NCBI GenBank assembly: GCA_944320295.1
Contig: CALUGY010000078.1
Span: 24,557-88,556, forward strand
Origin: an uncultured Bacteroides sp.
GTDB lineage: Bacteria; Bacteroidota; Bacteroidia; Bacteroidales; Bacteroidaceae
Length of the DNA: 64,000 bases
Reading direction: 5' to 3'
The notes below the pieces were generated by a model. It ran no database searches and was not told the DNA's origin. It worked only from the letters and a program-made list of their open reading frames with translations. Both the position numbers and the translations under genes were made by a program. Shown here one piece after another: positions 10,185-52,674 of this stretch; positions within the stretch are counted from its first letter, which is position 1, and each line of letters starts with the position of its first letter.

Positions 10185-10272
10185 TGCTCCGAACATGTTC
10201 CGCCCTTGCTCCGAACGCGTTGCGGCCGTGCTTCGAGTGTGTTGCGTCCGCGCTCCGAACATGTTGCGCCCG
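10185..10272. repeat. 22-bp dyad array A1 (four units)
   Basis: Four in-phase 22-bp units start at 10185, 10207, 10229 and 10251. Cores at unit positions 8-15 are AACATGTT, AACGCGTT, AGTGTGTT and AACATGTT; arms resemble GCTCCG on the left and GCGNCC on the right. The conserved flank (on the reverse strand GATAAAAGCC... then GGGCGCAAC) lies at the right-hand side, about 10273-10300. The 391-bp region 9952-10342 between divergent genes otherwise holds only the two promoters. Confidence 0.85.
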
Positions 10273-10322
10273 AACCTCGGCTTTTATCGCGGTGTCTGTG
10301 CAGTTGCAGCCCGTTTTTTTCG

Positions 10323-10331
10323 TACCTTTGC
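10323..10331 (+). promoter_or_regulatory. -7 element for the ABC ATPase / MATE operon
   Basis: TACCTTTGC, a full match to TAnnTTTGc, lies 11 bases before the ATG at 10343 and 50 bp after repeat array A1. Confidence 0.6.
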
Positions 10332-10342
10332 GTGTCCGAACA

Positions 10343-11422
10343 ATGAACAATCATCTGAATATAGGGAACGCTGCGGCAGACCTCGTGCTGAAGGATTTGT
10401 CGATAGGCTATCGCTCGCGGAACACCTGCAAGGTAGTGGCCGGGCACATCGACGGGGAAATACGCCGGGGTGAGATGGTGTGCCTGCTGGGTGCGAACGG
10501 AGTGGGCAAGTCGACGCTGATGAAGACGATTTGCGCTTTCCTGCCGGGCCTTTCGGGAGAAATCCTGTTGTCCGGGCAGCCTGTCTCCTCGTATGCGGCG
10601 GACGATTTGGCGCGCGTGTTCAGCGTGGTGCTGACCGACCGGTGCGACGTGCTGAACATGTCCGTGTATGACATGGCGGGGATGGGGCGCACGCCTTATA
10701 CCAATTTCCTGGGGCAGCTCCGCGTGGCGGACAGGGAGGCCGTGGAGCGTGCGCTGGCGCAGGTGGGCATCTCGCACCTTGCGGGCAGGATGATGCATTC
10801 GCTCAGCGACGGTGAACGCCAGAAGGTTATGATAGCCAAATCGTTGGCGCAGGACACGCCGTTCATTTTCCTCGACGAGCCTACCGCCTTCCTCGACTAT
10901 CCCAGCAAAGTGGACATCCTGCGGTTGCTCCACAACCTGAGCCGTACGGCGGACAAAGCCATCTTCCTTTCCACGCACGACGTGGAGCTGGCCATGCAGG
11001 TGGCCGACCGTCTTTGGCTGATGGGCGGCGGGGACGGGATGGTTGTGGGAACGCCGGAAGACCTGGCCCGCCAGGGCTTCATTGGTCGGATATTTGCCTG
11101 TCCGGGCTTGGAGTTCGATGCGTGCCGGGGCAGCTTCCATGTCAAGATGGATTGCAGCCGGCAGGTTTCCGTAGATGGCGATGAGTCTTTGCTCGAACCC
11201 CTTCGCCGCGCCCTGATGCGAAACGGCATAGAAGCCGTGGTGGGCGGCAACCTGGATGTGCGCATCACGGCAGACACCGGCCGGGGCTACCTGCTCCACT
11301 TGCCTGGACAGTCTGGCGTGCAACCGGTCGCGGCTCCGGACATGCAGTCGCTTTTGTCGATACTTACAGAACATTCCATCATCATACGCCATGCACTTCC
11401 ACCTCTCACATACGGCCGATGA
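10343..11422 (+). CDS. ABC transporter ATP-binding protein (iron-siderophore/cobalamin type)
   Basis: 359 residues. Walker A GANGVGKST (50-58), signature LSDGERQK, Walker B FIFLDEPTAFLD and the H-loop STHDVE are all present. The N-terminal about 260 residues resemble FecE/FepC/BtuD-type ATPases; a C-terminal extension of about 100 residues has an unclear role. No permease or binding-protein gene is adjacent. Instead the gene overlaps the downstream MATE gene by 32 bases, implying translational coupling. The start at 10343 follows a promoter element and gives MNNHLNIGN; a longer in-frame start lies in the repeat array. Confidence 0.88.
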   Translation: MNNHLNIGNAAADLVLKDLSIGYRSRNTCKVVAGHIDGEIRRGEMVCLLGANGVGKSTLMKTICAFLPGLSGEILLSGQPVSSYAADDLARVFSVVLTDRCDVLNMSVYDMAGMGRTPYTNFLGQLRVADREAVERALAQVGISHLAGRMMHSLSDGERQKVMIAKSLAQDTPFIFLDEPTAFLDYPSKVDILRLLHNLSRTADKAIFLSTHDVELAMQVADRLWLMGGGDGMVVGTPEDLARQGFIGRIFACPGLEFDACRGSFHVKMDCSRQVSVDGDESLLEPLRRALMRNGIEAVVGGNLDVRITADTGRGYLLHLPGQSGVQPVAAPDMQSLLSILTEHSIIIRHALPPLTYGR

Positions 11423-12770
11423 CAATTACCGTCAGCTCACCACGGCACCGGTACCGGGGCTGATTATGAAGCTGGCTGTCCCTACCATCATAAGCATGCT
11501 CGTCACCTCTTTCTACAACATGGCGGACACGTATTTTGTGGGGAAGATAGACACCCAGTCTACGGCGGCGGTGGGCATCGTGTTCTCGCTTATGTCTGTC
11601 ATACAGGCCATAGGTTTCTTCTTCGGGCACGGCTCGGGCAACTACATGTCGCGGCGTCTCGGGGCGAAAGATACGGCGAATGCGGAGCGCATGGCCTCCA
11701 CGGGTTTTTTCTTGGCCTTCTTCAGCGGGCTGGTGCTCATGGCCCTTGGGCTGTTGCTGCTCACCCCGCTCTCCGTGTGGCTGGGCTCCACGCCCACCAT
11801 ACTGCCCTACACGGAGCAGTACTTGGGCATCATCCTGCTCGGAACACCTTTCATGTCGGCCTCGTTGGTGTTGAACAACCAGATGCGCTTTCAAGGAAAC
11901 GCCCTTTATGCCATGGTGGGCATTGTTTCGGGTGCGTTCATCAATGTCGCGCTCGACCCTCTGTTCATCTTCGTGTTCGACATGGGAGTTGCCGGGGCGG
12001 CGGTGGCTACGGTCATCAGTCAGGTATGCAGCTTCACGCTGCTGCTTTTCATGAGTCGTCGGGGGGGCAACATACGTATCCGCTACCGCAACTTCACCCC
12101 GACGCTGGCCTTTCTCAAGGAGATTGTCAGCGGGGGGACGCCTTCGCTGGCACGGCAAGGCTTGGCCAGCCTGTCCACCATCCTGCTCAATCTGGCTGCG
12201 GGGCAGTATGGCGACGCGGCCATTGCGGGCATGTCCATTGTCTCTCGCATCGGCATGTTCATCAATGCTTTCTTCATTGGCTTTGGGCAGGGCTTCCAGC
12301 CCGTGTGCGGTTTCAGCTACGGGGCGCAACTCTATGCCCGCGTGCGGCAGGCCTTCTGGTTTTGCGTGAAGGTCGGTGTGGCGTTCCTTGCCGTATGTGC
12401 GGTGTTGGGCTTCGGCTGTGCCGAGCAGGTGGTCGAGCTGTTCCGTAAGGGCGACCCGGCTGTGGTGGCCACCGGCGCGGCGGCTTTGCGCTGGCAGCTG
12501 GTTACCTATCCGTTGGGCGCGTGGGTCATCATAAGCAACATGATGTTGCAGACCATACGCAAGCCCGTGCGGGCCACGCTCTTGTCGTCGGCGCGTCAGG
12601 GACTTTTCTTCATTCCGCTCATCTTTATCTTGCCGCATGTTTGGGGATTGCAGGGAGTGGAGATGTGCCAGGCCGTGGCTGATATGCTGACTTTCCTGCT
12701 GGCCATTCCCATCACGTTCAGCGTGCTTGCCGAGATGAAGCGCAAGGAGCGGATGCTGGCTTCGCTTTAG
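11391..12770 (+). CDS. MATE family multidrug/metabolite efflux transporter
   Basis: 459 residues with about 12 membrane helices. The MATE N-terminal signature is visible (LIMKLAVPTIISMLVTSFYNMADTYFVGK), followed by AVGIVFSLMSVIQAIGFFFGHGSGNYMSRRLGAKD; the second half repeats the fold (GFGQGFQPVCGFSYGAQ). It exports organic cations or drugs using a Na+ or H+ gradient (family knowledge); the substrate is unknown. The start at 11391 lies inside the end of the ABC ATPase gene. Its last four bases overlap the end of the convergent barrel gene. Confidence 0.92.
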   Translation: MHFHLSHTADDNYRQLTTAPVPGLIMKLAVPTIISMLVTSFYNMADTYFVGKIDTQSTAAVGIVFSLMSVIQAIGFFFGHGSGNYMSRRLGAKDTANAERMASTGFFLAFFSGLVLMALGLLLLTPLSVWLGSTPTILPYTEQYLGIILLGTPFMSASLVLNNQMRFQGNALYAMVGIVSGAFINVALDPLFIFVFDMGVAGAAVATVISQVCSFTLLLFMSRRGGNIRIRYRNFTPTLAFLKEIVSGGTPSLARQGLASLSTILLNLAAGQYGDAAIAGMSIVSRIGMFINAFFIGFGQGFQPVCGFSYGAQLYARVRQAFWFCVKVGVAFLAVCAVLGFGCAEQVVELFRKGDPAVVATGAAALRWQLVTYPLGAWVIISNMMLQTIRKPVRATLLSSARQGLFFIPLIFILPHVWGLQGVEMCQAVADMLTFLLAIPITFSVLAEMKRKERMLASL

Positions 12771-13435
12771 AAGATGCGGTAGCCCAGCGTGAAGAAGGTA
12801 CCCAGATTCTTGGGATTGAAGCCTTCCAGTCCGTTTATGGCGTATTGCAGCTGGGTATTTACCGTACGCAGTCCCATTTGCACTTCCGCCCCGGCGATGA
12901 ACCTTTTGTATTCCAGCGTCAGCCTTATCCGGAGTCCCCAGTCGAAGTACTTGCTGCCGGCTTTGCCGTCTATGAGGTTGCCGAAGGTGGGTATGCTGAA
13001 GTTGTAGTTATCGGACGAGGAACTGCTGCTGGAGGTTGCTATCGTGCCTTTTGTCTTTCCTCCGATGCCGAAGGCCATGTAGGGGCCTGCTGCCAAGGAG
13101 GCGTGGTAGTCTTTGGAGAAGTGCAGGCGTGCTTCGGCCAGCAGCGGCACTTGCAGGTAGACGGAGTTCATGTTTCCGCTGTTCACATCCAATATTTGTC
13201 GCTTCCCCCCGATGGAAACGACCTCCACACCCGACTGCAGTCCGAACGAAGGCCGTAGCAGGTAAGTGGCTCCTACGCTTGCCTTGTAGGCGATGCGCGT
13301 GTCGCTCTTTGACAGATGGCCGTAGAAGCAGGAGGTACCTATGCCCGCCTCGACATGGTAGGACAGGGGGGACTGTCCCCGCATGGCCAGCGGTGCGAGC
13401 AAGAGTATGTAGAGCAGGAATATCGCTTTCTTCAT
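12767..13435 (-). CDS. Outer-membrane beta-barrel protein (PorT-like/OMP_b-brl family)
   Basis: 222 residues with a signal peptide (MKKAIFLLYILLLAPLAMRGQ) and a mature region of alternating amphipathic strands ending in a terminal phenylalanine (TLGYRIF), the usual C-terminal outer-membrane signal. Looks like a small eight-strand-type barrel. A serine run (about residues 134-141) marks an exposed loop. Function unknown. It follows the nucleotidyltransferase gene by 61 bp on the same strand. Confidence 0.8.
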   Translation of the reverse strand: MKKAIFLLYILLLAPLAMRGQSPLSYHVEAGIGTSCFYGHLSKSDTRIAYKASVGATYLLRPSFGLQSGVEVVSIGGKRQILDVNSGNMNSVYLQVPLLAEARLHFSKDYHASLAAGPYMAFGIGGKTKGTIATSSSSSSSDNYNFSIPTFGNLIDGKAGSKYFDWGLRIRLTLEYKRFIAGAEVQMGLRTVNTQLQYAINGLEGFNPKNLGTFFTLGYRIF

Positions 13436-13496
13436 GTCTATGCGTCTTAGGGGTGATGACTTCCCCGCCTGTATGTACAGGTGGAGGGTGGTGGAG

Positions 13497-14237
13497 TTAC
13501 CGGTTGTAGTAGGCTTCTGCCTGGTGCAACGTTTCCGGCTTGCCGATGTCGAACCACACGCCTCCGTCTACGGGGTGGGTGCGTATAAGGGCCTTGCGGC
13601 AAACACCTACGTAGAACGGAATGATTGAGAACCGGTCGCACGTGGCCCACTCATCCATGTAGCGGAAGATGGATGGCGACATGACGTGGATGCTGTTGAA
13701 GGCTTCTTCCGTATAGCGGCCGGCATCGGCTGGAGCCAGTTCCTTGGGCAGCACCTCGCCCGTGGACTTGTTCGTCCAGCCGCACAGGCGGCCGTCGGCA
13801 TCGGTCAAGAAGTAGCGGGAGGTGGTGCGGTGGCTGGTTAGCAACGTGGCATCGGCCCCATGCTCTACGTGGTAGCGGTAGAGCGCGGACAGGTCGACGT
13901 CGGAGAGGGTATCTACGTTGTGCACCAGAAACGGCTCGTCGCCATCAAGGAAGGGACGTGCCTTGCGTATGCCTCCGCCCGTGTCGAGCAACGCCCCGCG
14001 TTCGTCGCTTATGTGGATGGTGACGCCGAAGTTGCCGTTGGCATGGAGGTAGTCGATGATTTGCTGGCCCAAGTGGTGGATGTTGACGGTGATGTCGCGG
14101 AATCCCGCCTCCTTCAGCCGCAGGATGACGCGTTGCAGCATGGGTTTGCCTGCCACAGGCACCAAGGCTTTGGGCATGCTGTCGGTCAGCGGGCGCAGGC
14201 GTGTGCCCATGCCGGCGGCAAATATCATGGCTTTCAT
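13497..14237 (-). CDS. Sugar-1-phosphate nucleotidyltransferase (MurU/RfbA-like)
   Basis: 246 residues with the nucleotidyltransferase signature AAGMGTRLRPLTDSMPKAL at the N terminus, LDTGGGIRKA, a metal-binding HNVDTL and a C-terminal DIGKPETLHQAE. Such enzymes make NDP-sugars from sugar-1-phosphates. It begins one base after the stop of the upstream kinase/RapZ-C gene, so the two are certainly co-transcribed. The kinase resembles AmgK and this pairing mirrors AmgK/MurU, which gives UDP-MurNAc from salvaged MurNAc; a GDP-mannose-type or other hexose role is an alternative. Confidence 0.85.
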   Translation of the reverse strand: MKAMIFAAGMGTRLRPLTDSMPKALVPVAGKPMLQRVILRLKEAGFRDITVNIHHLGQQIIDYLHANGNFGVTIHISDERGALLDTGGGIRKARPFLDGDEPFLVHNVDTLSDVDLSALYRYHVEHGADATLLTSHRTTSRYFLTDADGRLCGWTNKSTGEVLPKELAPADAGRYTEEAFNSIHVMSPSIFRYMDEWATCDRFSIIPFYVGVCRKALIRTHPVDGGVWFDIGKPETLHQAEAYYNR

Positions 14238-14238
14238 T

Positions 14239-15669
14239 TCAGTTCTTCGCTTTAAAAGTCTGCTCTATGTTCTGCTCGCGGTGCACGAGGTTGACCTGTA
14301 CGCCGAACTTTTGGTTGAGGTGCTCGGCCAGGTGCTGCGCCGAGTAGACGGAACGGTGCTGCCCGCCGGTGCAGCCGAAGCTGACGCAAAGGTTGGTGAA
14401 GCCGCGCTCCATGTAGCGCTTTACCGAAGCGTCGACCAGGGCATATGCGTGCTCCAAGAACGTCTGTATCTCGCCGTCTTCTTCAAGGAAGCGGATGACT
14501 GGCTCGTCCAGTCCCGTGAAGGGCTTATAGCGTTCGTATTTGCCGGGGTTGTTCACGGCGCGGCAATCGAACACGAATCCGCCCCCGTTGCCCGTGGGGT
14601 CTTCGGGGATTCCCTTCTTGTAGGCGAAGCTGATTACCTTCACCACGAGGCGGCGCTTTTGCAGGTCGTCGGTAAACTGCTTCAGTTCGGTGAGTTCTTG
14701 CAGAATCTTGCTCAGGTAAGGGTATTCCGGGTAGGGCTCTTGCAGCAAGCGGCGCAGGTTTTCGATGGCGAAGGGCACGCTCTGTATGAAGTGCGGCTTC
14801 TTCTCGAAGTAGCCACGGAAGCCGTAGGCGCCCAGCACCTGCATGGTGCGGAACAGCACGAAGTGGCGCAGCTGGGCGTAGAAGTAGGCCTCGTCCACCG
14901 GCTGGTATTTGCGCAGCGCGTCGATGTACTCCTGCAGCAGCTCCTGACGCAAGCTGTCGGGATAGTTGGCCTTTGCCTGCCACAGGAACGAGGCCACGTC
15001 GTAGTACACGGGACCTTTCCGGCCGCCCTGGAAGTCGATAAACCAAGGTTCCCCGTCCCTAATCATGACGTTGCGGCTTTGGAAGTCGCGGTACATGAAG
15101 GTGGCCGAGCTGCTGCGCAGCAACACGTCGGCCATTTTCTGGAAGTCGTCTTCCAGCTTGTCTTCCATGAAGTCCATGCCCGTGGCCTTTAGGAAGCAGT
15201 ATTTAAAGTAGTTCAAGTCCCACAAGATGGAACGGCTGTTGAACTCCGGCAGCGGGTAGCAGTAGGAAAAGTCCATGCCGTCGGCGCCCGCGAACTGTAT
15301 GGACGGCAGTAGGCGGATGGTCTTGCGCAGCAGTTGCTTCTCTTCTTCGTCGAACACGCTGGTCTTGCGCCCCTTCTCTATGGCGTCGAAGAGGAGCGTG
15401 TTGCCCAAGTCCTCTTGCAGGTAATATATGTCGTCGTCGGAACGGATGTAGACCTTGGGCACGGGCAGCCCTTTCTGCCTGAAGTGGTCGGCCATGTAGA
15501 GGAAGGCCCGGTTCTCCTCCCTCGACTCGCCGGCCACGCCTATCAGCGTGGGGTCGCCTGTCAGGCGGAAGTAGCGGCGGTTGGAGCCGGAGGAGGGCAA
15601 TTCGTCTATCTGTGCGGGCGCGTGCCCGGTGTGTGCGATGTAAATCTTCTTCAGTTCTTCGTTTATCAT
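14239..15669 (-). CDS. Fusion of an APH-type sugar kinase (AmgK-like) and a RapZ C-terminal domain
   Basis: 476 residues. Residues about 25-320 form an aminoglycoside-phosphotransferase fold: catalytic loop YRDFQSRN (D195, N200), metal-binding IDFQGG (D212), and GPVYYDVASFLWQ as in AmgK anomeric sugar kinases. Residues about 340-470 match the C-terminal domain of RapZ, with the signature GCTGGQHRS (432-440) and FDCRAVNNPG. RapZ-C binds glucosamine-6-phosphate in E. coli (known); here it could sense amino-sugar supply and regulate the kinase (inference). No RapZ N-terminal NTPase domain is present. The next gene, one base away, is a nucleotidyltransferase. A weak -7 (TATCTTAGC, 15692-15700) lies upstream. 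Confidence 0.88.
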   Translation of the reverse strand: MINEELKKIYIAHTGHAPAQIDELPSSGSNRRYFRLTGDPTLIGVAGESREENRAFLYMADHFRQKGLPVPKVYIRSDDDIYYLQEDLGNTLLFDAIEKGRKTSVFDEEEKQLLRKTIRLLPSIQFAGADGMDFSYCYPLPEFNSRSILWDLNYFKYCFLKATGMDFMEDKLEDDFQKMADVLLRSSSATFMYRDFQSRNVMIRDGEPWFIDFQGGRKGPVYYDVASFLWQAKANYPDSLRQELLQEYIDALRKYQPVDEAYFYAQLRHFVLFRTMQVLGAYGFRGYFEKKPHFIQSVPFAIENLRRLLQEPYPEYPYLSKILQELTELKQFTDDLQKRRLVVKVISFAYKKGIPEDPTGNGGGFVFDCRAVNNPGKYERYKPFTGLDEPVIRFLEEDGEIQTFLEHAYALVDASVKRYMERGFTNLCVSFGCTGGQHRSVYSAQHLAEHLNQKFGVQVNLVHREQNIEQTFKAKN

Positions 15670-15840
15670 GTCGTATACTTCTATTTTGGTGGCTAAGATA
15701 CGCCTTTTCCCTTAAAATGGCACGCTTTGCCGGACGGTATTTCATAAAAATGTCGTTTCAATCGCCGTGTGCCCGCTTTCTTTTGCGCCGCTTTTCCGAC
15801 GGCCGGGAATGCCGTTCCCCGTGGCATTATACGGGGGCTT

Positions 15841-15928
15841 TGCTCCGTACATGTTGCGTGTTTGCTCGCAACGTGTTGCGTCCGTGCTCCGAACGCGTTA
15901 CGCCCGCGCTCCGTACATGTTGCGGACA
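15841..15928. repeat. 22-bp dyad array A2 (four units)
   Basis: Units start at 15841, 15863, 15885 and 15907; cores TACATGTT, AACGTGTT, AACGCGTT, TACATGTT. The conserved flank (GGCATTATA... GGGGGCTTT, about 15822-15840) is on the left. The 380-bp region 15670-16049 holds this array plus the terminator of the downstream gene; nothing else is recognisable. Confidence 0.85.
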
Positions 15929-15962
15929 TGGCTGTGTAATATGCTGTTTTTGAGTGAAAAAG

Positions 15963-15999
15963 AAAGGGATGTGCCATAATACATGTGGCACATCCCTTT
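15963..15999 (-). terminator. Intrinsic terminator of the DHOD-like gene
   Basis: Perfect 14-bp inverted repeat AAAGGGATGTGCCA / TGGCACATCCCTTT with a 9-base loop; on the reverse strand it is followed by CTTTTTC. It lies about 50 bases after the stop at 16050. Confidence 0.85.
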
Positions 16000-16049
16000 C
16001 CAGTAGATGACAGGGAAAGGCGGAATGCGCCTCCCCGGTGTATGTCTGC

Positions 16050-17027
16050 TTATTCGTGTGCGGCGAAGTACTTCAGAAACTGCGTGCGCTCGAAGGTGCT
16101 GGCGCCCTTGGCGTCGCCCCGGTTCAGCCTGCCTTTGAACTGCGCGATGCTCTCCATGCCCTTGCGTTCCATCCACTGACGTAGGAAGCCGCAGTACTCA
16201 CCGATGACCGCCGGTCCTTGGCGATAGATGGAACTGCATACCTCTACGGCCGATGCTCCGGCCAGGATGGCCTTGACCACAGCCTCTGGTGTGTGCACGC
16301 CGCCCGACAAGGCATAGTCCATGCGGGGCACGGCAGCCGAGGCGATGCCTGTCCAGCGCAAGGCTTTCGGCAGGTCGGCCTCTGTGCTGAACACGTTGCA
16401 GGCCGACTGCTCCATCTTCTCTATGTCGATGTCCGGCTGGTAGAAGCGGTTGAACAGCACTACGGCGGCTGCCCCGTTGGCATACAGTTGCTCGATGAGG
16501 GCTACCGGGTTGGTCAGGTTGTCGCCCAGCTTCATAATGACGGGGATGCCGACCGTGTTCTTCACGTGCTTCAATATGTCTATGTGGCGCTGTTCGAAGC
16601 TTCCGTACGCGTATTGCGGGTCACTCTGCAGGGCCAGGATGTTTATTTCCAGCGCGTCGGCTCCGGCCTGCTCTATTTGTTTGGCGAAGTCCACCCATTG
16701 CGCGTCGTCGTAGCAGTTGATGCTGGCAATGATAGGGATGTCGCACCGTTTCTTGCTTTCGGCTATGAGCGCCACATATTCGCTCAGCCTGTGCTGGCGT
16801 ATGTAGGCGGCCATGTAGTCGCTTCCCTCCGGCGACGCGTAGGCATCCTGCGCCTTGTCCGTTTCCATCAGGATTTGCTCTTCGAATAGTGACTTCAGTA
16901 CGATGGCCCCTGCTCCGGCCTCGCACAACTTCTTGTTCTTTTCCGCGCTGTCGGTAAGTCCCGAACTGCTGACAATGACAGGGTTCTTGAGCTTCAGCCC
17001 TGCAAAAGAGGTTTCTAATGTTGCCAT
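16050..17027 (-). CDS. Dihydroorotate dehydrogenase-like flavoprotein
   Basis: 325-residue TIM-barrel protein of the DHOD/PreA-like group: LKNPVIVSSSGLT near the N terminus, then ASINCYDDAQWVDFAKQIEQAGADALEIN and a C-terminal flavin-phosphate-binding GASAVEVCSSIYRQGP. Members without a partner subunit are widespread in Bacteroidetes and their true substrate is uncertain, so pyrimidine synthesis should not be assumed. It lies 36 bp downstream of the YggS-type gene on the same strand and ends at a strong terminator. Confidence 0.85.
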   Translation of the reverse strand: MATLETSFAGLKLKNPVIVSSSGLTDSAEKNKKLCEAGAGAIVLKSLFEEQILMETDKAQDAYASPEGSDYMAAYIRQHRLSEYVALIAESKKRCDIPIIASINCYDDAQWVDFAKQIEQAGADALEINILALQSDPQYAYGSFEQRHIDILKHVKNTVGIPVIMKLGDNLTNPVALIEQLYANGAAAVVLFNRFYQPDIDIEKMEQSACNVFSTEADLPKALRWTGIASAAVPRMDYALSGGVHTPEAVVKAILAGASAVEVCSSIYRQGPAVIGEYCGFLRQWMERKGMESIAQFKGRLNRGDAKGASTFERTQFLKYFAAHE

Positions 17028-17063
17028 GATGATGGTGTATGGTTGGTTAATGATTTCTTATGC

Positions 17064-17732: not shown

Positions 17733-17746
17733 GGTTGTATAGTGGG

Positions 17747-18226
17747 TTATTTGGAAGCTTGTTCCATCTCCGGTTTGTCGTCCGAAGCCGCTTGGTAGCG
17801 GTACACGTCCATTATTGTGGTTTCTGCCACCGAAGCTATCTGATAGTCGGCCATTGTTCCCTCCATGCCTTTGTCCAGCTTCTTCACGGCATCGCGCAGG
17901 TCGGCGGCTTGTACCAGTATGAGTGTGGATGTCTTTTTCTCGGCTCCGCTCTTTTCGTCCAATGTGATGAATACCACCTTGCACTTGAACCAGCGGTCGG
18001 CTGCCTCCTCCTCGCTGGGGAACAGTTCGCTGTAGTTGGCGCGTTTGATGTCGGCCACGGTGTATTCTCCGGTCATGAACGGGCTGATTTCCTCTATGAT
18101 GCGGGCTTCGGCCTCGGTAAAGCTCAGCGCCTCCACAAGGTATGGCTCTGTCACTTTCTTTACCATTCCGTTTTCCATTGTCTTTTCATAACGGATTTTG
18201 CATTCGAACCAAGTATTTATCAACAT
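17747..18226 (-). CDS. DUF4494 domain protein
   Basis: 159 residues, cytoplasmic, no signal peptide. Matches the Bacteroidetes DUF4494 family as I recall it: N-terminal WFECKIRYEKTMENGMVKKVTEPYLVEALSFTEAEARI, then PFMTGEYTVADIKRANYSELFPSEE. Function unknown. It lies 14 bp upstream of the YggS-type gene. Confidence 0.8.
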   Translation of the reverse strand: MLINTWFECKIRYEKTMENGMVKKVTEPYLVEALSFTEAEARIIEEISPFMTGEYTVADIKRANYSELFPSEEEAADRWFKCKVVFITLDEKSGAEKKTSTLILVQAADLRDAVKKLDKGMEGTMADYQIASVAETTIMDVYRYQAASDDKPEMEQASK

Positions 18227-19071: not shown

Positions 19072-19083
19072 AGTTCCTTTCTA

Positions 19084-22265: not shown

Positions 22266-22353
22266 TGCCCGCAACATGTTGCGGGCAAACTTCCAACACG
22301 TTGCGAGCGCGCTCCGAACGTGTTGCGAGCGCGCTCGCAACATGTCGCGCGTA
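22266..22353. repeat. 22-bp dyad array A3 (four units)
   Basis: Units start at 22266, 22288, 22310 and 22332; cores AACATGTT, AACACGTT, AACGTGTT, AACATGTC. The first unit is a perfect 22-bp palindrome that extends to 28 bp (22263-22290). The junction of units 3 and 4 is a perfect 20-bp palindrome (GTTGCGAGCG / CGCTCGCAAC). The conserved flank, on the reverse strand CCAGAACG... TATATAGGGGCTTT, lies at 22354-22378. The array sits between convergent genes. Confidence 0.88.
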
Positions 22354-28694: not shown

Positions 28695-28782
28695 CGGGCG
28701 CAACGTGTAGGGAACGCGCTCGCAACGTGTTGGAAGCGTGCTCCGAACATGTTGCGGCCGCGGCCGCAACATGTTCCGCCCG
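28695..28782. repeat. 22-bp dyad array A4 (four units)
   Basis: Units start at 28695, 28717, 28739 and 28761; cores AACGTGTA, AACGTGTT, AACATGTT, AACATGTT. The junction of the last two units is a perfect palindrome (GTTGCGGCCG / CGGCCGCAAC). The conserved flank CCAGAAGGCATTATA... CGCTTTCGGG lies at 28671-28698. It occupies the middle of the 351-bp region between divergent M64 and Lrp-type genes. Confidence 0.87.
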
Positions 28783-33962: not shown

Positions 33963-34018
33963 TGGTGGGGAATTTCCCTTTTGTATGGCACATATAAATG
34001 ATTGATATATAGTGGGGT

Positions 34019-34106
34019 TATTCGCAACGCGTTGCGGGCGTACTCGGAACATGTTGCGAGCGCGCTCCGTACACGTTGCGGGCAAGGCCGCAACATGTTG
34101 CGGACA
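34019..34106. repeat. 22-bp dyad array A5 (four units plus a degenerate fifth)
   Basis: Units start at 34019, 34041, 34063 and 34085; cores AACGCGTT, AACATGTT, TACACGTT, AACATGTT. The next in-phase 22 bp (34107-34128) look like a decayed unit (core AATATATC). The conserved flank (GATATATAGTGGGG, about 34000-34018) is on the left. It lies in a 466-bp region (33829-34294) between divergent genes that also holds the two C-rich elements and one promoter. Confidence 0.85.
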
Positions 34107-34173
34107 AAAGCGCAATATATCGCAATTTTCCCCTTCCTTATGGGGGAGGGGGCGGGGGAGAGGCTTTCCTCAT

Positions 34174-42205: not shown

Positions 42206-42293
42206 TGTTCCCTACATGTTCCGCTCTTGCTCGCAACGTGTACGGGACGCGCTTGCAACACGTTCGGGACGCGCTCGCAACGTGTCGCGCCTA
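42206..42293. repeat. 22-bp dyad array A6 (four units)
   Basis: Units start at 42206, 42228, 42250 and 42272; cores TACATGTT, AACGTGTA, AACACGTT, AACGTGTC. The conserved flank is on the right (reverse strand AATATTCAAGCC... GGCGCGAC, about 42294-42312). The 353-bp region 42098-42450 also holds the Cys/His-gene promoter and the hsp20 terminator. Confidence 0.85.
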
Positions 42294-46022: not shown

Positions 46023-46047
46023 CACGTATTCTTATTGGGAAGCAATT

Positions 46048-46091
46048 CATGCAAGAGGGTGGGCAGTCAAGCTACTCCCACCTTTTGCATG
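46048..46091. terminator. Probable bidirectional terminator between convergent genes
   Basis: Long hairpin CATGCAA.AGGGTGGG / CCCACCTTTTGCATG with a 13-base loop. It overlaps the last codons of the fucose-isomerase-like gene. Confidence 0.55.
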
Positions 46092-47316
46092 CGTTTATTT
46101 GGAAAAACTCATCAAGCATCTGCACACAGTTGCCCTGTATCATGACGTGGTGGTTGCCTAACGGGTTATTCAAGAAATAAGCTGCGGGCGAGTTAAGCTT
46201 TATCCGAACTTGAGTGCGGCACAGGTTCAGGTAGTTAGTGTTTTCTGTCAATGTGCCAGTACTTAAATAGTATTCATCAAGGCATTCTCCTCCGCATTTC
46301 ACCAAAGTCACATCTCCTGTGGGTAACAGTCCTTGGATACCTATGCTTGTCTCCGTCTCGAAATGGTTACGTATGATGAACCTTTCTGTTTGTTTTAGAC
46401 CGATGGAACAATGAGCCATTACGATTTCATTGGTACGTGCGTTTACCATGGATGGATTGGCCATGAATCCCTCTTTCCCTATGAGGGCTTTTACCGCTAG
46501 CAGGGTAAAGATGGATTGCAAGTCACCTTCGCATCCGGCAACAATACCCTCATCATTCAGCAGGGACAGGGCAAGGCATCCTGTCGTACCGATGTCTTTA
46601 ATCATGTTGAAGCAACTTAAGGTTAAGGCGTTGAGCTTCTCTTCTTCCGCTATGCGCTTTATGGCGAGATATAGTCGCATGGCTTTCAGCATGTCTTCTG
46701 GGCTAGCTTCTCTACAGGCTAAGGCTCTTTCAGCCAGTTTGGCACAAGACCCTCCAACTTCATCGTCTGTAGTATGTTTGTACCGTTCATATATCCGTTT
46801 CAGCGGGATGTCCATGTATTCCACTCCCCAGCGGCGTTTGGCAAGGAGGTAATCCACATGGCTTGCCACTAACCAATTTGCCGGAGTACCTATTACTCCG
46901 ATGCGTGCTCCTGCGATATGGCTTTGTGCTTTGAATATGTTATAGAGAACATATACCCTCTTGGTGATTTCTACCAACTCTCCATGTAGTATTTCTGTTT
47001 TTATACCACGTCTGCGCAACCAGGTTGATACTTCGAGGGCGGCAGCCAGAGAGTTTTGCATGCCATCGGCCAGTAATATGGTTGGGCGTGGCAATGATTC
47101 GAAATGTTGTATGATAAGTCGCTCCACTCCTCCTGTAGCTATGAACACGATGCTGAAGTCCTTTTTAGAAAGACTCCCCATGTCCTTGTAATCAACAAAA
47201 TTGAGTGTGAAGTATTTCTCTAATTCCGTTAGTACAGCTTCATGAGAATTGCGGACAGAAGCTTGTTTATGTAAATAAGAAGCAAACGTTATTAGGTTGA
47301 TAAGCATATTCCGCAT
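46072..47316 (-). CDS. L-fucose/L-arabinose isomerase-like protein, function unknown
   Basis: 414 residues, cytoplasmic. Overall layout resembles the fucose-isomerase-like superfamily: an N-terminal Rossmann-type half (SIVFIATGGVERLIIQHFE, PTILLADGMQNSLAAALEVSTWLRRRG) and a C-terminal half with possible metal ligands (DEGIVAGCEGDLQSIFTLLAVKALIGKEGFMANP, HCSIGL, NHHVMIQGN). No sugar-utilisation genes lie nearby, so the substrate is open. Lower G+C than most of the window. A second ATG at 47307 is an alternative start. Confidence 0.72.
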   Translation of the reverse strand: MRNMLINLITFASYLHKQASVRNSHEAVLTELEKYFTLNFVDYKDMGSLSKKDFSIVFIATGGVERLIIQHFESLPRPTILLADGMQNSLAAALEVSTWLRRRGIKTEILHGELVEITKRVYVLYNIFKAQSHIAGARIGVIGTPANWLVASHVDYLLAKRRWGVEYMDIPLKRIYERYKHTTDDEVGGSCAKLAERALACREASPEDMLKAMRLYLAIKRIAEEEKLNALTLSCFNMIKDIGTTGCLALSLLNDEGIVAGCEGDLQSIFTLLAVKALIGKEGFMANPSMVNARTNEIVMAHCSIGLKQTERFIIRNHFETETSIGIQGLLPTGDVTLVKCGGECLDEYYLSTGTLTENTNYLNLCRTQVRIKLNSPAAYFLNNPLGNHHVMIQGNCVQMLDEFFQINACKRWE

Positions 47317-47356
47317 TGTATTGTTGATTATTATTCTTGTGTTGCCTTTTAGTGCT

Positions 47357-47365
47357 TTAAAGGTA
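47357..47365 (-). promoter_or_regulatory. Possible -7 element for the fucose-isomerase-like gene
   Basis: Reverse strand TACCTTTAA, a TAnnTTT match lacking the final G, 40 bases upstream of the start. Confidence 0.4.
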
Positions 47366-47510
47366 GAGCTTTCATTTTATATGGCCAAGCTATTTTTAAT
47401 TTAGATAAGAAAATTAAAAGGCTATTGGCAGAAAAATGTAGAAAGGACTGTTTGAAGAAATATTATTGTTGTATAGAGATGTTTTTGTAGGTAATGATGG
47501 GTAAAATAAA

Positions 47511-47539
47511 GACAGCCGACATCATAGATGCCGGCAGTC
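47511..47539 (-). terminator. Intrinsic terminator of glyA
   Basis: 13-bp stem with two mismatches (GACTGCCGGCATC / GATGTCGGCTGTC), three-base loop, followed on the reverse strand by TTTATTTTA. Thirty bases after the glyA stop. Confidence 0.75.
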
Positions 47540-47569
47540 AAGGTATTCTTGTTTTCTTGTCTCTTATTT

Positions 47570-48850
47570 TTAATAAGCAAATAGCGGGTACTTTTTCATC
47601 GTTTCATTGACACGGGCACGAACGTTGGCGATTACCTGTTCATTGTCTACGTTGGAAAGTACGGTCTCGATCAGTTCTGCTATTTCAAGCATCAGGTCTT
47701 CTTTGGCACCACGTGTGGTAATGGCAGGTGTACCTAAACGGATACCTGAAGTTTGGAAAGCTGAACGGGTGTCGAACGGCACCATGTTTTTGTTGACAGT
47801 AATATCGGCCGACACCAAGGCTTTTTCCGCTACTTTGCCTGTCAGGTCGGGATACTTGGTGCGCAGGTCTACCAGCATGGAGTGATTGTCCGTACCGCCG
47901 GATACGATGGAGAAGCCTCTGTCCATCAGGGCTTGTGCCAATGTAGCGGCATTCTTCTTCACCTGCAGGGCGTATTCTTTCCATTCGGGTTGCAATATTT
48001 CGTTGAAGGCTACGGCTTTTGCAGCAATGACATGTTCCAGCGGGCCGCCTTGTATGCCGGGAAATACTGCCGAGTCGAGCAATTGCGACATCATCTTGAT
48101 TTCGCCTTTCGGTGTCTTTTTGCCCCAGGGGTTGGGGAAGTCTTTTCCCATCAGGATGATACCACCGCGCGGGCCGCGAAGCGTCTTGTGCGTAGTAGAG
48201 GTCACGATGTGGGCGTATTTCACAGGATTGTCCAGTAAACCTGCAGCAATCAGACCGGCGGGGTGTGCCATGTCTATCATCAAGATGGCTCCGATTTTGT
48301 CTGCAATTTCACGCATGCGCTTGTAGTCCCATTCGCGTGAGTAGGCAGAACCGCCGCCGATAATCATCTTCGGCTTTTCGCGCAGGGCTATTTCTTCCAT
48401 CTGGTCATAATCCACTCGGCCGGTTTTTTCGTTCAGGTTGTACTCGCATGGAGTGTAAATGATACCGGATGTATTTACTGATGAGCCGTGCGACAGGTGA
48501 CCACCATGTGCCAGATTCAGTCCCATGAATTTGTCTCCCGGATTGAGTACGGCCAAAAAAACAGCAGCATTGGCTTGTGCTCCCGAGTGGGGTTGCACGT
48601 TTGCCCATTCTGCATCGAAAATCTTCTTGATTCTGTCGATGGCGATTTGCTCACTTTGGTCTACCACTTCACAACCGCCGTAATAGCGTTTTCCAGGATA
48701 GCCCTCGGCATACTTGTTGGTAAGGCAAGAGCCCATGGCCTGCATGACTTCGTCGCTGACAAAGTTCTCCGAAGCAATCAGCTCCATACCTTTCAGCTGG
48801 CGTTGATGCTCGTTTTCGATAATGCTAAAAATCAGATCATCTCTTTTCAT
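47570..48850 (-). CDS. glyA: Serine hydroxymethyltransferase
   Basis: 426 residues; interconverts serine and glycine while charging tetrahydrofolate with one carbon. PLP lysine K222 in [14 protein letters not shown]; conserved [28 protein letters not shown], and [14 protein letters not shown]. The start at 48850 gives [15 protein letters not shown]; the longer in-frame start is inside the leader. A leader of about 210 nt separates it from its promoter. Confidence 0.97.
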
Positions 48851-49060
48851 TGTGTGGTTATCGTTAGTGAAGCCGTCCTGAGAACAGCTTCCGGTTAATA
48901 CAACATATAGTATATATAAACGTAGCGGAAAAGGTGTCGTGTCCTGTCGCAAGCGATACAAACAAACGTCGCAGTATCTATCCTGTGAGAATGAATGATG
49001 CCCACAAACATATGCGACGTTGATGTCTTGGTTCCATTATCCCGCTTCTAAATTTGATTG
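48851..49060 (-). promoter_or_regulatory. Long structured 5' leader of glyA
   Basis: With transcription starting just after the -7 at 49066, glyA has a leader of about 210 nt, far longer than others here. It contains a potential stem ACGTCGC / GCGACGT enclosing about 45 nt, and near the start codon a second pairing (AAGC.GT... ACGGCTT). It matches no riboswitch class that I can recognise. It could be a regulatory leader or simply spacer. Confidence 0.4.
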
Positions 49061-49065
49061 AGACC

Positions 49066-49074
49066 GCAAATATA
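49066..49074 (-). promoter_or_regulatory. -7 element for glyA
   Basis: Reverse strand TATATTTGC, full consensus, about 215 bases upstream of the glyA start. Confidence 0.55.
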
Positions 49075-49205
49075 GGTATAATATTCCTCACTACTACAAA
49101 GGAAAAGTTACTTTCTGATTTGCTTTGTTTTTTGCCGAAGTCGTTGAGAAGGTGAAAATCATGAAGTGGAGCTGTCGTTCATGCCGATATGTGCCGTTTC
49201 TTTCG

Positions 49206-49214
49206 TATTTTTGC
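49206..49214 (+). promoter_or_regulatory. -7 element for topB
   Basis: Forward TATTTTTGC, full consensus, 23 bases before the ATG. Confidence 0.6.
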
Positions 49215-49237
49215 CTCGCGAAATTCATAGAGAAGCG

Positions 49238-51358
49238 ATGATAGTCTGCATAGCCGAGAAGCCCTCCGTGGCGCGCGACATAGCCGACGTGCTTGGAGCG
49301 AAAGAAAAGAAAGAAGGATATATAGAAGGAAACGGATACCAAGTGACGTGGACGTTCGGTCATTTGTGCACGTTGAAGGAACCACACGAGTATACTCCTG
49401 AATGGAAGTCGTGGCGGCTGGAGTATCTGCCCATGATTCCGCCCCGTTTCGGTATCAAGCTTATCAGTAACCCTACCTACGAGCGCCAGTTTCATGTCAT
49501 AGAGCAGTTGATGCAACATGCCGACATGATTATCAACTGCGGCGATGCCGGCCAGGAGGGTGAATTGATTCAACGTTGGGTGATGCAGAAGGCGGGGGCG
49601 CGCTGCCCGGTAAAACGCCTCTGGATATCATCGCTCACCGAGGAGGCCATTCGCGAGGGTTTTGCCAAGTTGCGCGATGCTTCCGACTTCCAGCCTCTGT
49701 ACGAAGCCGGGTTGAGCCGCGCCATAGGCGACTGGCTGTTGGGCATGAACGCCACGCGTCTCTATACCATGAAGTATGGCCAGAACCGTCAAGTGCTGTC
49801 CATAGGCCGTGTACAGACACCTACGTTGGCCCTCATAGTCAACAGGCAACTTGAAATAGAACACTTTGTGCCCAAACAATACTGGGAATTGAAAACCGTC
49901 TACCGCGATACCCTCTTCTCCGCCGTATTGAAAAAGAGTGAAGAAGAATTGGTACTTGAGGCAGAGAAGCAGGGGACGGATGCGGCATCCGAGAAGCCCG
50001 TCGAGAATCCAGGCATAGAACCCATTACCGACAAAGAGCGAGGAATGGTCTTGCTTGAACGGATAAAAAGCGCTCCTTTCACCGTGACTGCTGTGAGCAA
50101 AAAGACAGGGCGCGAAGCTCCGCCCCGCCTGTTCGACCTGACTTCTTTACAGGTGGAGTGTAATCGTAAGTTCGCCTATTCGGCCGACGAGACGTTGAAG
50201 CTCATCCAGTCGTTGTACGAGAAGAAGGTCACTACTTATCCTCGTGTGGACACCACCTTCCTTAGCGACGACATTTATCCGAAGTGCCCGGGCATTTTGG
50301 CCGGGTTGCGCGATTATGCGGCCCTCACCGCACCGTTGAAAGGTGCGCCCTTGCTGAAATCCAAAAAGGTGTTCGACAACTCCAAGGTGACAGACCATCA
50401 CGCCATCATTCCTACCGGACAATCGTCGGCCAATCTGTCGGACATGGAGCGCCGTGTCTTCGATTTGGTGGCTCGTCGTTTTATTGCCGTGTTTTATCCG
50501 GATTGCAAGTTTGCCACGACCACCATCTCCGGCGAGGTGGAAGGTATTCTGTTCAAGGCGAGCGGGCGGCAGATATTGGAACCGGGTTGGCGTGTGATAT
50601 TCTCCTCGACTTCCCGTCAGGGTGATAATGAAGACAAAGAGGGAGAAAATGAACGCCAGCTTCCGGCTTTCGTCAAAGGGGAGAGCGGCCCCCATGTGCC
50701 CGACCTTGTAGAGAAGTGGACACAGCCTCCCCGCCCTTACACCGAGGCCACCTTGCTACGTGCCATGGAGACGGCGGGCAAATTGGTGGACAACGACGAA
50801 TTGCGCGATGCCTTGAAGGAGAACGGTATAGGCCGTCCATCCACCCGCGCGGCCATCATCGAGACCTTGTTCAAGCGCAACTACATCCGCAAGGAGAAGA
50901 AGAACCTGATAGCCACGCCTACCGGCGTGGAGTTGATACAGACCATCCGTGAAGAACTGTTGAAGTCGGCCGAACTGACAGGCCTGTGGGAGAAGAAGCT
51001 GCGCGAGATAGAGCGGCGTGCTTATCCTGCCGCCCGCTTCTTAGACGAGCTGAAGCAGATGGTGAAAGAGATTGTGGCCGAGGTGATGGCCGACCGTAGC
51101 AACCGCCGCATTACGGTGCAAGCCCCACCTCCGCTGAAAGCGGAGAAAAAGACGGCCTCCAAAGGCACGGCACCGGCCGCGAAAAAGGAACCGAAGAAAC
51201 GCGCCCCCCGGAAGGTTGCCGTCCCCAAAGTCCAAAGCCAGGACATCGTGGGGCAACCCTGTCCGGTGTGCGGCAAAGGCACCATCATTAAGGGCAAGAC
51301 GGCCTACGGCTGCTCGGAGTGGAGAAGTGGATGCCCCTTCCGCAAGCCGTTTGAATAG
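49238..51358 (+). CDS. topB: DNA topoisomerase III
   Basis: 706-residue type IA topoisomerase. TOPRIM domain at the N terminus (IVCIAEKPSVARDIADVLGAKEKK, NCGDAGQEGELIQRW), catalytic tyrosine Y334 in TTYPRVDTTFL, GIGRPSTRAAIIETL near 540. The C terminus has a basic Lys/Ala/Pro linker (about 632-670) and one four-cysteine zinc-ribbon (CPVCGKG... CSEWRSGC). Decatenates and relaxes DNA via single-strand passage. The start at 49238 gives MIVCIAEKPSVA, the family's usual beginning; the open frame extends upstream without a promoter. Confidence 0.95.
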   Translation: MIVCIAEKPSVARDIADVLGAKEKKEGYIEGNGYQVTWTFGHLCTLKEPHEYTPEWKSWRLEYLPMIPPRFGIKLISNPTYERQFHVIEQLMQHADMIINCGDAGQEGELIQRWVMQKAGARCPVKRLWISSLTEEAIREGFAKLRDASDFQPLYEAGLSRAIGDWLLGMNATRLYTMKYGQNRQVLSIGRVQTPTLALIVNRQLEIEHFVPKQYWELKTVYRDTLFSAVLKKSEEELVLEAEKQGTDAASEKPVENPGIEPITDKERGMVLLERIKSAPFTVTAVSKKTGREAPPRLFDLTSLQVECNRKFAYSADETLKLIQSLYEKKVTTYPRVDTTFLSDDIYPKCPGILAGLRDYAALTAPLKGAPLLKSKKVFDNSKVTDHHAIIPTGQSSANLSDMERRVFDLVARRFIAVFYPDCKFATTTISGEVEGILFKASGRQILEPGWRVIFSSTSRQGDNEDKEGENERQLPAFVKGESGPHVPDLVEKWTQPPRPYTEATLLRAMETAGKLVDNDELRDALKENGIGRPSTRAAIIETLFKRNYIRKEKKNLIATPTGVELIQTIREELLKSAELTGLWEKKLREIERRAYPAARFLDELKQMVKEIVAEVMADRSNRRITVQAPPPLKAEKKTASKGTAPAAKKEPKKRAPRKVAVPKVQSQDIVGQPCPVCGKGTIIKGKTAYGCSEWRSGCPFRKPFE

Positions 51359-51379
51359 TAGCCCTATGCCATAAACTTG

Positions 51380-52459
51380 TTACACCTTGAAAAGCATTCC
51401 TCCTATGTTGTCCCTTTCCGCTCCGGTGACGGACGACAGACAGCTCGGCTCGTCGGCCATGTAGAGCGTACCGAGGAAGGCGAAAATCAGGGCTTCCTTG
51501 TATTCTATGATTTGACGTTCCGGCACCACGATGCTACAGGGACACAACGCGTCGATGCGTTCCACCAGAAACTTGTTGAAGGCTACTCCGCCGGTGACCA
51601 GCATACGGCCTTGGCCTCCGTTGCATGGGTGCGCCTTGACCACGCGGGCCACTTGCCAGGCGGCGTGTTCGTAATACGTGCGCAGCATGTCCTCCAGCGG
51701 AAGGCCGTGTCGTTCCAGCAGGGGGTAGATTTCACTTTCCACCCATTCGCGTCCCAACGACTTGGGTCCGTTTTGGTGATAAAAGTCCAGAGCGTTCAGC
51801 TCGTCGAGCAAGTCCTGCTTCACGCTGCCCCGGCGGGCTATTTCCCCGTCGCGGTCGAAGTCCAGACCGATTTGCCGGCAATAGTGGTTTATGACGTAGT
51901 TGGCCGGGCTGATGTCGAAAGCGATGCGCCTGCCCTCTTGCTCGAACGAGATGTTCGAGAAGCCACCGATGTTGAGACAATAGTCGTAGTCGCCGAACAG
52001 CAGCCGGTCGCCTATAGGTACCAAGGGAGCGCCTTGCCCGCCAAGCATGATGTCGAGTCGCCGGAAGTCGGACACGGTGGGTATGTGTGTTTCGGCGGCA
52101 ATGGCCGCGCCGTCGCCAATCTGGTACATGACGCGTTTCTGCGGTTCGTGGAATATGGTATGTCCATGCGAGGCAATGATGTCGGGGTGCAAGCCGAACT
52201 CGTGCAAAAAGTCGTTGACACGTTCGCCGAGGAATTTTCCATAGGCACTATGGAAGGTCACGAACTCCAGTGCGCTCATTTCCTGGGCGGCAGTCCCCAA
52301 CAGCCGCTTCATGTCATCGGGATAAGTGTATCCCCTTGCCGCGTCGATGTGGAACGTCCACTTGCCATTACGCTTTGTGAATGTGCAGCAACACACATCC
52401 AATCCGTCGAGTGAGGTGCCCGACATCAGGCCGACAGCCTGCATGTTAAAGTCTTTCAT
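51380..52459 (-). CDS. anmK: Anhydro-N-acetylmuramic acid kinase
   Basis: 359 residues. ATPase fold with the signature VGLMSGTSLDGLDVC at the N terminus, GGFSNISF and MLVTGGVAFNKFLVERI. Cleaves the 1,6-anhydro bond of anhMurNAc and phosphorylates it to MurNAc-6-phosphate, a step in peptidoglycan recycling. It is convergent with topB, 21 bp apart. The AmgK/MurU-like pair at 13.5-15.7 kb could act further down the same salvage route. Confidence 0.95.
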   Translation of the reverse strand: MKDFNMQAVGLMSGTSLDGLDVCCCTFTKRNGKWTFHIDAARGYTYPDDMKRLLGTAAQEMSALEFVTFHSAYGKFLGERVNDFLHEFGLHPDIIASHGHTIFHEPQKRVMYQIGDGAAIAAETHIPTVSDFRRLDIMLGGQGAPLVPIGDRLLFGDYDYCLNIGGFSNISFEQEGRRIAFDISPANYVINHYCRQIGLDFDRDGEIARRGSVKQDLLDELNALDFYHQNGPKSLGREWVESEIYPLLERHGLPLEDMLRTYYEHAAWQVARVVKAHPCNGGQGRMLVTGGVAFNKFLVERIDALCPCSIVVPERQIIEYKEALIFAFLGTLYMADEPSCLSSVTGAERDNIGGMLFKV

Positions 52460-52486
52460 GATGGGTCTCTTAAAGGTTTCTTTCTT

Positions 52487-52495
52487 GCAAAGGTA
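52487..52495 (-). promoter_or_regulatory. -7 element for anmK
   Basis: Reverse strand TACCTTTGC, full consensus, 27 bases upstream of the start. Confidence 0.6.
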
Positions 52496-52586
52496 GTTTA
52501 AAGGGAAGCAAGATGCAATAAACTTCTGCTTTTTCAGTTTATATTAACGTGTTTGTGGCGTCTGTAGGCCACATGTGAGGGGCTTT

Positions 52587-52674
52587 TGGTCGGAACACGT
52601 TGCGCTCTCGCTTCGAACGTGTCGCGTCCGCGCTCGCAACGTGTTGTGCTCACGGCCGGAACGCGTTGCGCCCA
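52587..52674. repeat. 22-bp dyad array A7 (four units)
   Basis: Units start at 52587, 52609, 52631 and 52653; cores AACACGTT, AACGTGTC, AACGTGTT, AACGCGTT. The conserved flank lies on the right at about 52675-52695; its reverse complement AGAAGCATATTCCCGCC... GGGCGCAACG aligns closely with the left flank of array A4. Located between divergent anmK and the PorE-like gene. Confidence 0.86.

Follow-up and report, generated by a model that had tools for sequence, protein, structure and literature searches.

The window analysed here is a 64,000-nucleotide stretch of contig CALUGY010000078.1 from an uncultured Bacteroides sp. (assembly GCA_944320295.1), and it carries seven arrays, each composed of four contiguous 22-bp units with dyad symmetry (Table 1). 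All seven were found where a preliminary description of this DNA had placed them, and its observation of the arrays is confirmed. On recount, unit positions 11-12 are purine–pyrimidine (RY) in 28/28 units and ACRYGT occupies positions 9-14 in 27/28, while AACRYGTT is the usual form at positions 8-15 (A at position 8 in 24/28 units, T at position 15 in 23/28). The gene context (divergent for four arrays, tandem for two, convergent for one) was reproduced with independent gene calls. The interval 10185-52674 is only the span displayed in the window; the family itself is genome-wide.

Table 1. Arrays of the window and an example of the half-units that border them
Feature	Coordinates	Strand	Description
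Array 1	10185..10272	no strand	four 22-bp dyad units; divergent intergenic region (9951/10343)
Array 2	15841..15928	no strand	four 22-bp units; tandem intergenic region (15669/16050)
Array 3	22266..22353	no strand	four 22-bp units; convergent intergenic region (22255/22390)
Array 4	28695..28782	no strand	four 22-bp units; divergent intergenic region (28571/28923), adjoins AsnC-type gene
Array 5	34019..34106	no strand	four 22-bp units; divergent intergenic region (33807/34295)
Array 6	42206..42293	no strand	four 22-bp units; tandem intergenic region (42097/42451)
Array 7	52587..52674	no strand	four 22-bp units; divergent intergenic region (52459/52776), upstream of porE
Outer left half-unit, example at array 5	34003..34018	no strand	AT-rich core (TATA/ATAT) in array phase
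Outer right half-unit, example at array 5	34107..34122	no strand	mirror image of the left one

The array family in its genome

The genome of the window, a Bacteroides metagenome-assembled genome designated G000, is represented by a 2.53-Mb assembly that is 81.5% complete. A profile without structure built from the seven arrays (R1) gave at least 161 matches in it when 150 of the 958 first candidates were scored, some matches being the same array on both strands. The survey sample comprised 826 kb, about a third of the genome, namely the window and stretches from contigs with hits. It was scanned with a symmetric unit matrix (threshold 12 for a unit), runs scoring at least 40 being called strong arrays and those scoring 12-40 weak runs. 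We found 125 strong arrays, one per 6.6 kb, a density that is possibly overstated because the stretches were picked from hit-bearing contigs. Scaling by proportion gives an estimate of about 380 arrays in the whole assembly.

The number of units is fixed: 123 of the 125 strong arrays have four, and the only two with five are L148:8904 and L150:17662. Among the weak runs, L133:4392 has three units and L032:11201 has two, and the remaining three are single units. Consecutive units scoring at least 12 are spaced by 22 bp in 362/367 cases and by 44 bp in the other five, where a weak unit sits between; no other value occurs. The control, the same 826 kb reversed, yielded one single unit with a score of 12.4, and lone units numbered eight in the G000 sample versus three units in the reversed control. 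The fixed-number score runs, set against this control, exclude a chance origin of the arrays. The preliminary description had named random copy number, arbitrary period or equally good matches within genes as grounds for dropping its proposal; checked over this third of the genome, they did not overturn it.

Genes called anew in this analysis place 116 of the arrays between two genes (67 tandem, 36 divergent and 13 convergent) and nine at stretch ends. No called gene is touched by 119/125 arrays; four overlap one by up to 30 bp, and two lie inside one. The first of these (L140:15216) is in the end of an lpxB-like reading frame and looks as if its insertion had lengthened the protein, and the second (L139:12371) is located about 400 bp within a long reading frame. 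Gene starts lie farther from the arrays (59 bp at the 5th percentile of the distances) than do gene ends, for which the figure is about 8 bp. On 12 segments of at least 35 kb, 82 gaps between arrays have a mean of 6.5 kb and a coefficient of variation of 0.69, compared with 0.87 ± 0.08 for random intergenic choice; only 5 and 2 of 500 simulations, under two weightings, were as low. Gaps range from 1409 bp to 29 kb, and each of the nine close pairs listed has a gene between its two arrays.

Units, symmetric ends and flanks

Over 500 units of G000 the core is nearly invariant (A9 in 499, C10 in 489, G13 in 487 and T14 in 493), with R11 in 500 and Y12 in 499. Positions 6, 7, 16 and 17 are G or C in 497-499 units, position 8 is never C, position 15 is G once, and positions 3-4 and 19-20 are variable. 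The inner symmetric positions, examined for compensatory changes between the arms, do not co-vary: no inner pair exceeds 0.02 bits, the value of 6-17 and 7-16, against a maximum of 0.024 in shuffles and a null mean of 0.01. Pairs farther out exceed this maximum (0.13 bits for 1-22, 0.05 for 4-19 and 3-20, 0.03 for 2-21), which is probably due to the position of the unit within the array. Neighbouring positions in one half co-vary strongly, with 0.58 bits at 3-4. Since the inner pairs lack covariation while neighbours within a half have it, the 11-bp half-sites behave as independent words drawn from a small list, and 13 eight-letter words cover 743/1000 half-sites. For the same reason, the absence of inner-arm covariation, the units are not a hairpin.

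CRYG occurs at 475/500 dyad centres and also at 268/375 junctions between units, so the motif recurs every 11 bp. Half-sites 1 and 8 have common end-specific words, unlike the words of the inner half-sites, and in the family consensus both 11-bp flanks read TAT..GGC.TT, with an AT core that keeps the phase of the units. The whole array is thus two-fold symmetric and has defined ends. As regards the terminal inverted repeats expected of a mobile element, the ends are mirror-symmetric, but the youngest duplicates have just a few bases in common beyond the array. The preliminary description saw in the arrays selection on a DNA or RNA structure. Selection on the architecture is strongly supported by the fixed four, the fixed 22 bp, the nearly invariant core with variable arms and the lack of off-phase spacing; of the two kinds of structure, the evidence points towards DNA, so that the proposal is partly supported.

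The flanks of the G000 arrays carry an AT/GC wave. AT maxima lie near 1, 11, 22, 33-35 and 44 bp from the array edge and minima near 5, 17, 28, 39 and 50 bp, the best period in 249 flanks being 11.1 bp. Its power is 0.203 at 12-108 bp from the edge (null maximum 0.012 with random offsets), 0.115 at 23-108 bp (0.011) and 0.034 from 45 bp (0.009). The wave extends about 60 bp outward from the array, or ~100 bp each way from its centre; array-free gene ends, used as a control, give a power of 0.0015. It is equally present on sides facing gene starts and gene ends (0/1000 each; power 0.118 and 0.108, respectively), so promoters alone are not its cause. Such a wave is a mark of DNA bent round a protein, and its period, being longer than 10.5, would be in keeping with a path that is right-handed or underwound.

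Related genomes and turnover of array sites

A 22-bp shift is the most enriched tandem period in most of the Bacteroides samples. G000 has 138 cases at 22 bp, 8 at 21 bp and 5 at 23 bp (mean of ten other shifts 0.0), and G095 has 9, 3 and 3 (others 0.1 on average); G130 and G097 have 9 each at 22 bp, and G020 has 42 in 481 kb, some of them overlapping, followed by 10 at 18 bp. The exceptions are five named Bacteroides loci (4 at 22 bp and 4 at 21 bp) and G005 (1 and 4). The Paludibacteraceae showed 7 cases at 22 bp but 12 at 21 bp in 789 kb. No tandem repeats at 22 bp were found in Pedobacter, and none in G043 and G048 (40 kb each).

Four comparison genomes have four-unit families with words other than those of G000: G020, which belongs to the same genus as G000, and G095, G097 and G130. 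In G095, 15/18 arrays in 529 kb have four units, the two-unit one lying at a stretch end. Four units were also counted in 6/6 arrays of G097, in 6/8 of G130, where the stretches were chosen for hits, and in 32/35 of G020 (459 kb), the core of which is A(GG/CC)T. Scans over the genus, whose match counts are lower bounds because no more than 28 candidates were scored in any genome, gave R1 matches in 8/158 genomes (E <= 0.01). The profile from G095 (R3) matched in seven genomes (E <= 0.001), five of them also on the R1 list, and that from G020 (R2) in 30 (E <= 0.001), with G020 strong, G135 moderate and the rest weak. Related words are common to the group of G000, G095, G097, G130, G134, G083 and G071. 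The array families are therefore largely species-specific: the architecture is kept and the letters differ.

The wave is also seen in some of these genomes. In G095 (30 flanks) its period is 11.2 bp and its phase that of G000 (p 0.0075; 0.010 from 23 bp), and in G097 and G130 taken together (24 flanks) the period is 11.4 bp (0/400; 0.03 from 23 bp) with a phase about 1 bp off.

Smaller 22-bp families accompany the main one in G000, amounting to 11 arrays in 826 kb, with two motifs found twice each. These two, AAGTGTC..GACACTT and CCCACCCGGGTGG, have two loci each of about four units (the pairs L032:14665 and L134:13034, and L034:7596 and L041:10997). The window itself has another 22-bp array of about six units (CCAGTTGGGTAGCCGGAACCAC) at 6887-7026, which lies immediately before a PIF1-like helicase reading frame, on its upstream side, and overlaps its listed start, and a third one with a different motif at 61323-61390 (about three units, CGTCTTTTTGGAAAATCACGGG). 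A second G020 family with CTGCA..TGCAG units (L233:2106, L235:8617, L238:6585, L240:6113 and L051:1345) seemingly has five to six units, as judged by eye. By eye too, the shared flanks of the G130 arrays (L179, L180, L181, L183) seem longer than in G000, with a GC-rich hairpin on one side, followed by a T run in two cases, and an AT-rich word on the other.

Most of the G000 arrays are not recent copies of each other, since the median identity to the nearest neighbour on the same strand is 0.807, barely above the 0.785 obtained when half-units are dealt anew. A partner above 90% identity exists for only 4/125 arrays, one pair reaching 98.9% and one 92.0%. The arrays L142:18069 and L142:14350, located 3.7 kb apart, differ at 1/88 positions and have unrelated flanks; their similarity looks like the mark of a recent copying or conversion event confined to the array. 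Further arrays share identical internal tracts, which reach at least 44 bp in three pairs versus 0-1 in five shuffles. The near-identical pairs and the shared tracts indicate that local conversion or copying does occur.

Between species, the array sites turn over while the architecture does not. Among orthologous adjacent gene pairs of G000 and G095, 4/4 regions with a main-family array are without it in G095 and about 150-240 bp shorter. Three array regions have a counterpart in G097: at porE the counterpart has an array with a different motif, the second counterpart is shorter by 152 bp, and the third lacks an array at a similar length. Hence, in five of the seven orthologous regions compared the array is absent in the sister and the region is about 150-240 bp shorter there. 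Conservation of array position looked convincing in single cases and did not stand up to a controlled count (4/8 vs 32/100, p 0.44). One such case is porE, upstream of which 22-bp arrays with three unrelated motifs stand in three species (window 52587, L055:9888 and L058:9824), these being 3/21 loci at a score of 44 or more. The PorE protein encoded beside array 7 has 72% identity to a homologue from an uncultured Bacteroides and 71% to that of B. oleiciplenus, values that suggest Bacteroides as the genus of G000, and a PorE-based scan of viral contigs gave no match.

Known repeat classes and interpretation

Subirana and Messeguer described 20-23-nt bacterial satellites of constant size and variable sequence, species-specific and non-coding, and proposed for them either a nucleoid protein that needs a constant repeat size or small RNAs (PMC8161180). 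The preliminary description knew of no repeat family like the present one; this has to be corrected in favour of these satellites, although fixed four-unit dyad arrays are not described in the compared part of that source. Like the satellites, the arrays are non-coding tandem repeats of nearly constant unit length (22 bp in 362/367 spacings, 119/125 arrays gene-free), with several species-specific families per genome, no sequence conservation between species and a short common motif, which in G000 is the ACRYGT core. We conclude that they belong to this enigmatic class and sharpen it. Unlike the satellites as described, they are dyads fixed at four, composed of independent half-site words, with defined mirror ends, dispersal at ~6 kb and an 11.1-bp wave in the flanks, and the dyads, the exact four, the word lists, the symmetric ends and the wave are what is new. 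No word beginning with “bacteroid-” occurs in the main text of these authors' papers PMC8161180 and PMC6749651, and none of the papers found in a literature search of limited reach describes four-unit dyad arrays in Bacteroides.

A variable-number minisatellite was rejected on the constancy of the unit number, and a CRISPR array because the 22-bp units are contiguous and without spacers. Porphyromonas gingivalis belongs to the same order as Bacteroides. Its BrickBuilt element, a miniature inverted-repeat transposable element (MITE), is described as intergenic, dispersed, imperfect 23-nt tandem repeats in 19 copies, with 1 to 22.8 repeats, indels, and a long leader and tail with terminal inverted repeats (PMC4596501). 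The G000 arrays are likewise dispersed intergenic tandem repeats of similar unit size, but the number of their units is fixed where that of BrickBuilt varies, and no leader or tail was seen.

Repetitive extragenic palindromes (REP) and bacterial interspersed mosaic elements (BIME) are short palindromic intergenic repeats of high copy number, accompanied by a RAYT (Y1) transposase in the genome. The arrays resemble them in being palindromic, intergenic and high-copy, and differ in that their units stand strictly head-to-tail in 22-bp phase, four at a time. REP sequences are reported to carry a GTAG or CGTC tag at one end (PMC3733652), and some BIME-2 to bind gyrase (PMC6379681). The Y1 transposase domain PF01797 was absent in 7/7 genomes (68-91% complete), the same search being positive in 5/14 controls, and identity with the REP/RAYT system was rejected on this ground.

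We consider the chances about even that the arrays are DNA “platforms” on which four dimers of a putative DNA-bending protein wrap about 200 bp. A sequence-specific, dimeric DNA-binding and DNA-bending protein would dock on each array, its four dimers occupying the four dyads in a row along the same face of the helix, 22 bp being two helical turns of about 11 bp each. DNA on either side, with AT and GC oscillating at 11.1 bp in the phase of the dyads, would continue round the complex, and about 200 bp would be bent or wrapped symmetrically about the array centre. Lying mostly between transcription units, fairly evenly and ~6 kb apart on average, the platforms would probably serve to organise the chromosome and to fix the helical phase of promoters in their vicinity. 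The recognition of the protein may have drifted between species and the platforms drifted along with it, which would conserve the architecture and not the letters. Four dyads on the same face, their number fixed across different letters, the mirror ends and the wave are best explained by such a closed four-dimer complex. A bolder proposal, that this is a bacterial analogue of positioned nucleosomes, with up to hundreds of ~200-bp wrapped particles, seeded by the four-dyad arrays and standing near-regularly between transcription units, a species-specific code co-evolving with a fast-changing wrapping protein, and promoters in register, is a long way short of probable.

Several results weigh against the four-dimer platform. 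Its binding protein was not found, and the one candidate tested, the AsnC-type protein encoded beside array 4, failed. The Lrp/AsnC octamer has four dimers per complex and wraps DNA, so that its sites would fit four dyads. AsnC relatives are present in 12/13 genomes, G000 included; an autoregulated binder of this type was rejected because the array letters differ while AsnC (closer copy) is 83-92% identical in 11 other genomes, and the 22-bp array found upstream of the AsnC gene in G000 is lacking in 5/5 others (701 bases each). Among the protein families encoded beside arrays in several species, which were sought as leads to the binder, no DNA-binding one occurs in three or more species; one response-regulator family, recognised by eye, lies near arrays in G000 and G130. 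Beyond 45 bp the wave is not significant in G095 (p 0.145) or in G097 and G130 (p 0.20), and in G020 (64 flanks of its own 35 strong arrays) there is no AT wave at all (p 0.33, 0.59 and 0.41 over three ranges). A conserved chromosomal role would not predict that orthologous array sites are conserved no more than by chance, as the controlled count gave; the even spacing rests on stretches from hit-bearing contigs, and the weak partial runs L133:4392 and L032:11201 may be decayed arrays.

The evidence on promoters speaks partly for the platform and partly against it. In G000, loose -7 promoter boxes (TANNTTTG) within 160 bp of an array edge read away from the array in 76 cases and towards it in 22. 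Boxes that read outward keep a phase of 11.1 bp (20-130 bp, n 63, 0/4000 jitters), the inward ones do not (n 22, p 0.90), and an earlier gene-anchored count gave p 0.004 at 20-130 bp, with six boxes exactly 49 bp from the array edge (p 0.0018). The phasing fades with range in both counts (p 0.0043 at 20-155 bp; 0.025 at 20-220 bp in the gene-anchored one), it loses significance once a -33 box is demanded as well (p 0.20 and 0.11), it is not replicated in the sister genomes (19 boxes), being seen in G000 only, and it extends to further AT-rich words (TTTT, TATA, AAAA). It may therefore belong to the AT wave and not reflect a rule for promoters.

Other explanations share part of this evidence. 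A selfish dispersed repeat, that is, a small non-coding MITE- or REP-like element, mobile or gene-converting, that spreads per lineage and needs four units for its machinery, would suit the species-specific families, the five orthologous regions shorter and arrayless in a sister, the pair 3.7 kb apart with unrelated flanks, the shared tracts and, as possible decayed copies, the two weak partial runs. We hold it to be rather unlikely, as no Y1 transposase was found in seven genomes (68-91% complete), few arrays have a close partner and the median identity hardly exceeds that of redealt half-units; moreover, functionless copies so diverged should show many lost units and indels, whereas off-phase spacing is absent and partial runs are limited to the two weak ones. 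Operators of an ordinary transcription factor, with four cooperative sites and a large regulon instead of an architectural system, are an unlikely alternative in view of the 13 arrays between convergent genes, a wave about as strong towards gene ends as towards gene starts, a number (about 125 per 826 kb) very high for a regulon, and the lack of significant phase for promoters with a -33 box, even though the phased loose boxes, their pile-up at 49 bp and the greater distance of the arrays from gene starts speak for them.

Gyrase is a serious rival, improbable as we judge it: symmetric, periodically bendable intergenic DNA could be captured by DNA gyrase as its preferred sites, as in E. coli BIME-2. 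It is serious because the E. coli gyrase motif, which is symmetric and about 130 bp long, has two arms with 10.75-bp periodic GC, likened to nucleosome patterns (PMC6379681). Gyrase cuts are enriched at BIME-2 elements (PMC6379681), and the cleavage specificity of type II topoisomerases is reported to vary between species (PMC12324340). The G000 arrays share with this motif two-fold symmetry and helical GC periodicity in the arms, with their 11.1-bp wave. The motif as described is degenerate and without repeated dyads, in contrast to the base-specific and almost invariant core of the arrays; the array wave spans about 200 bp, not 130, and the central part 88 bp, not 36. Symmetric periodic GC arms, present in G000, are weaker in G095 and in G097 and G130, and absent in the arrays of G020. 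As for RNA, the arrays might be transcribed and fold into four hairpins, acting as small RNAs or as terminator- or attenuator-like elements, an idea recommended by the dyads, by three of the seven window arrays that out-fold shuffles (z -5.4, -4.6, -3.2) and by the small-RNA role proposed for the related satellites (PMC8161180). We judge it very improbable and rejected RNA structure, because the other four arrays fold like shuffles (z +0.5, +0.8, -1.1, -1.9), the inner arms lack covariation and no Rfam family reached the gathering score in the window.

The 20-23-nt satellites have so far been a puzzle, being constant in length and unconserved in sequence, with a function that is not known. The arrays offer a physical reading of this length, which would correspond to two turns of a wrapped helix, while the number four would correspond to four dimers. 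The lists of half-site words could serve as baits for finding the protein. If the four-dimer platform is true, the question of what organises the Bacteroides chromosome would become directly testable by a DNA pull-down.

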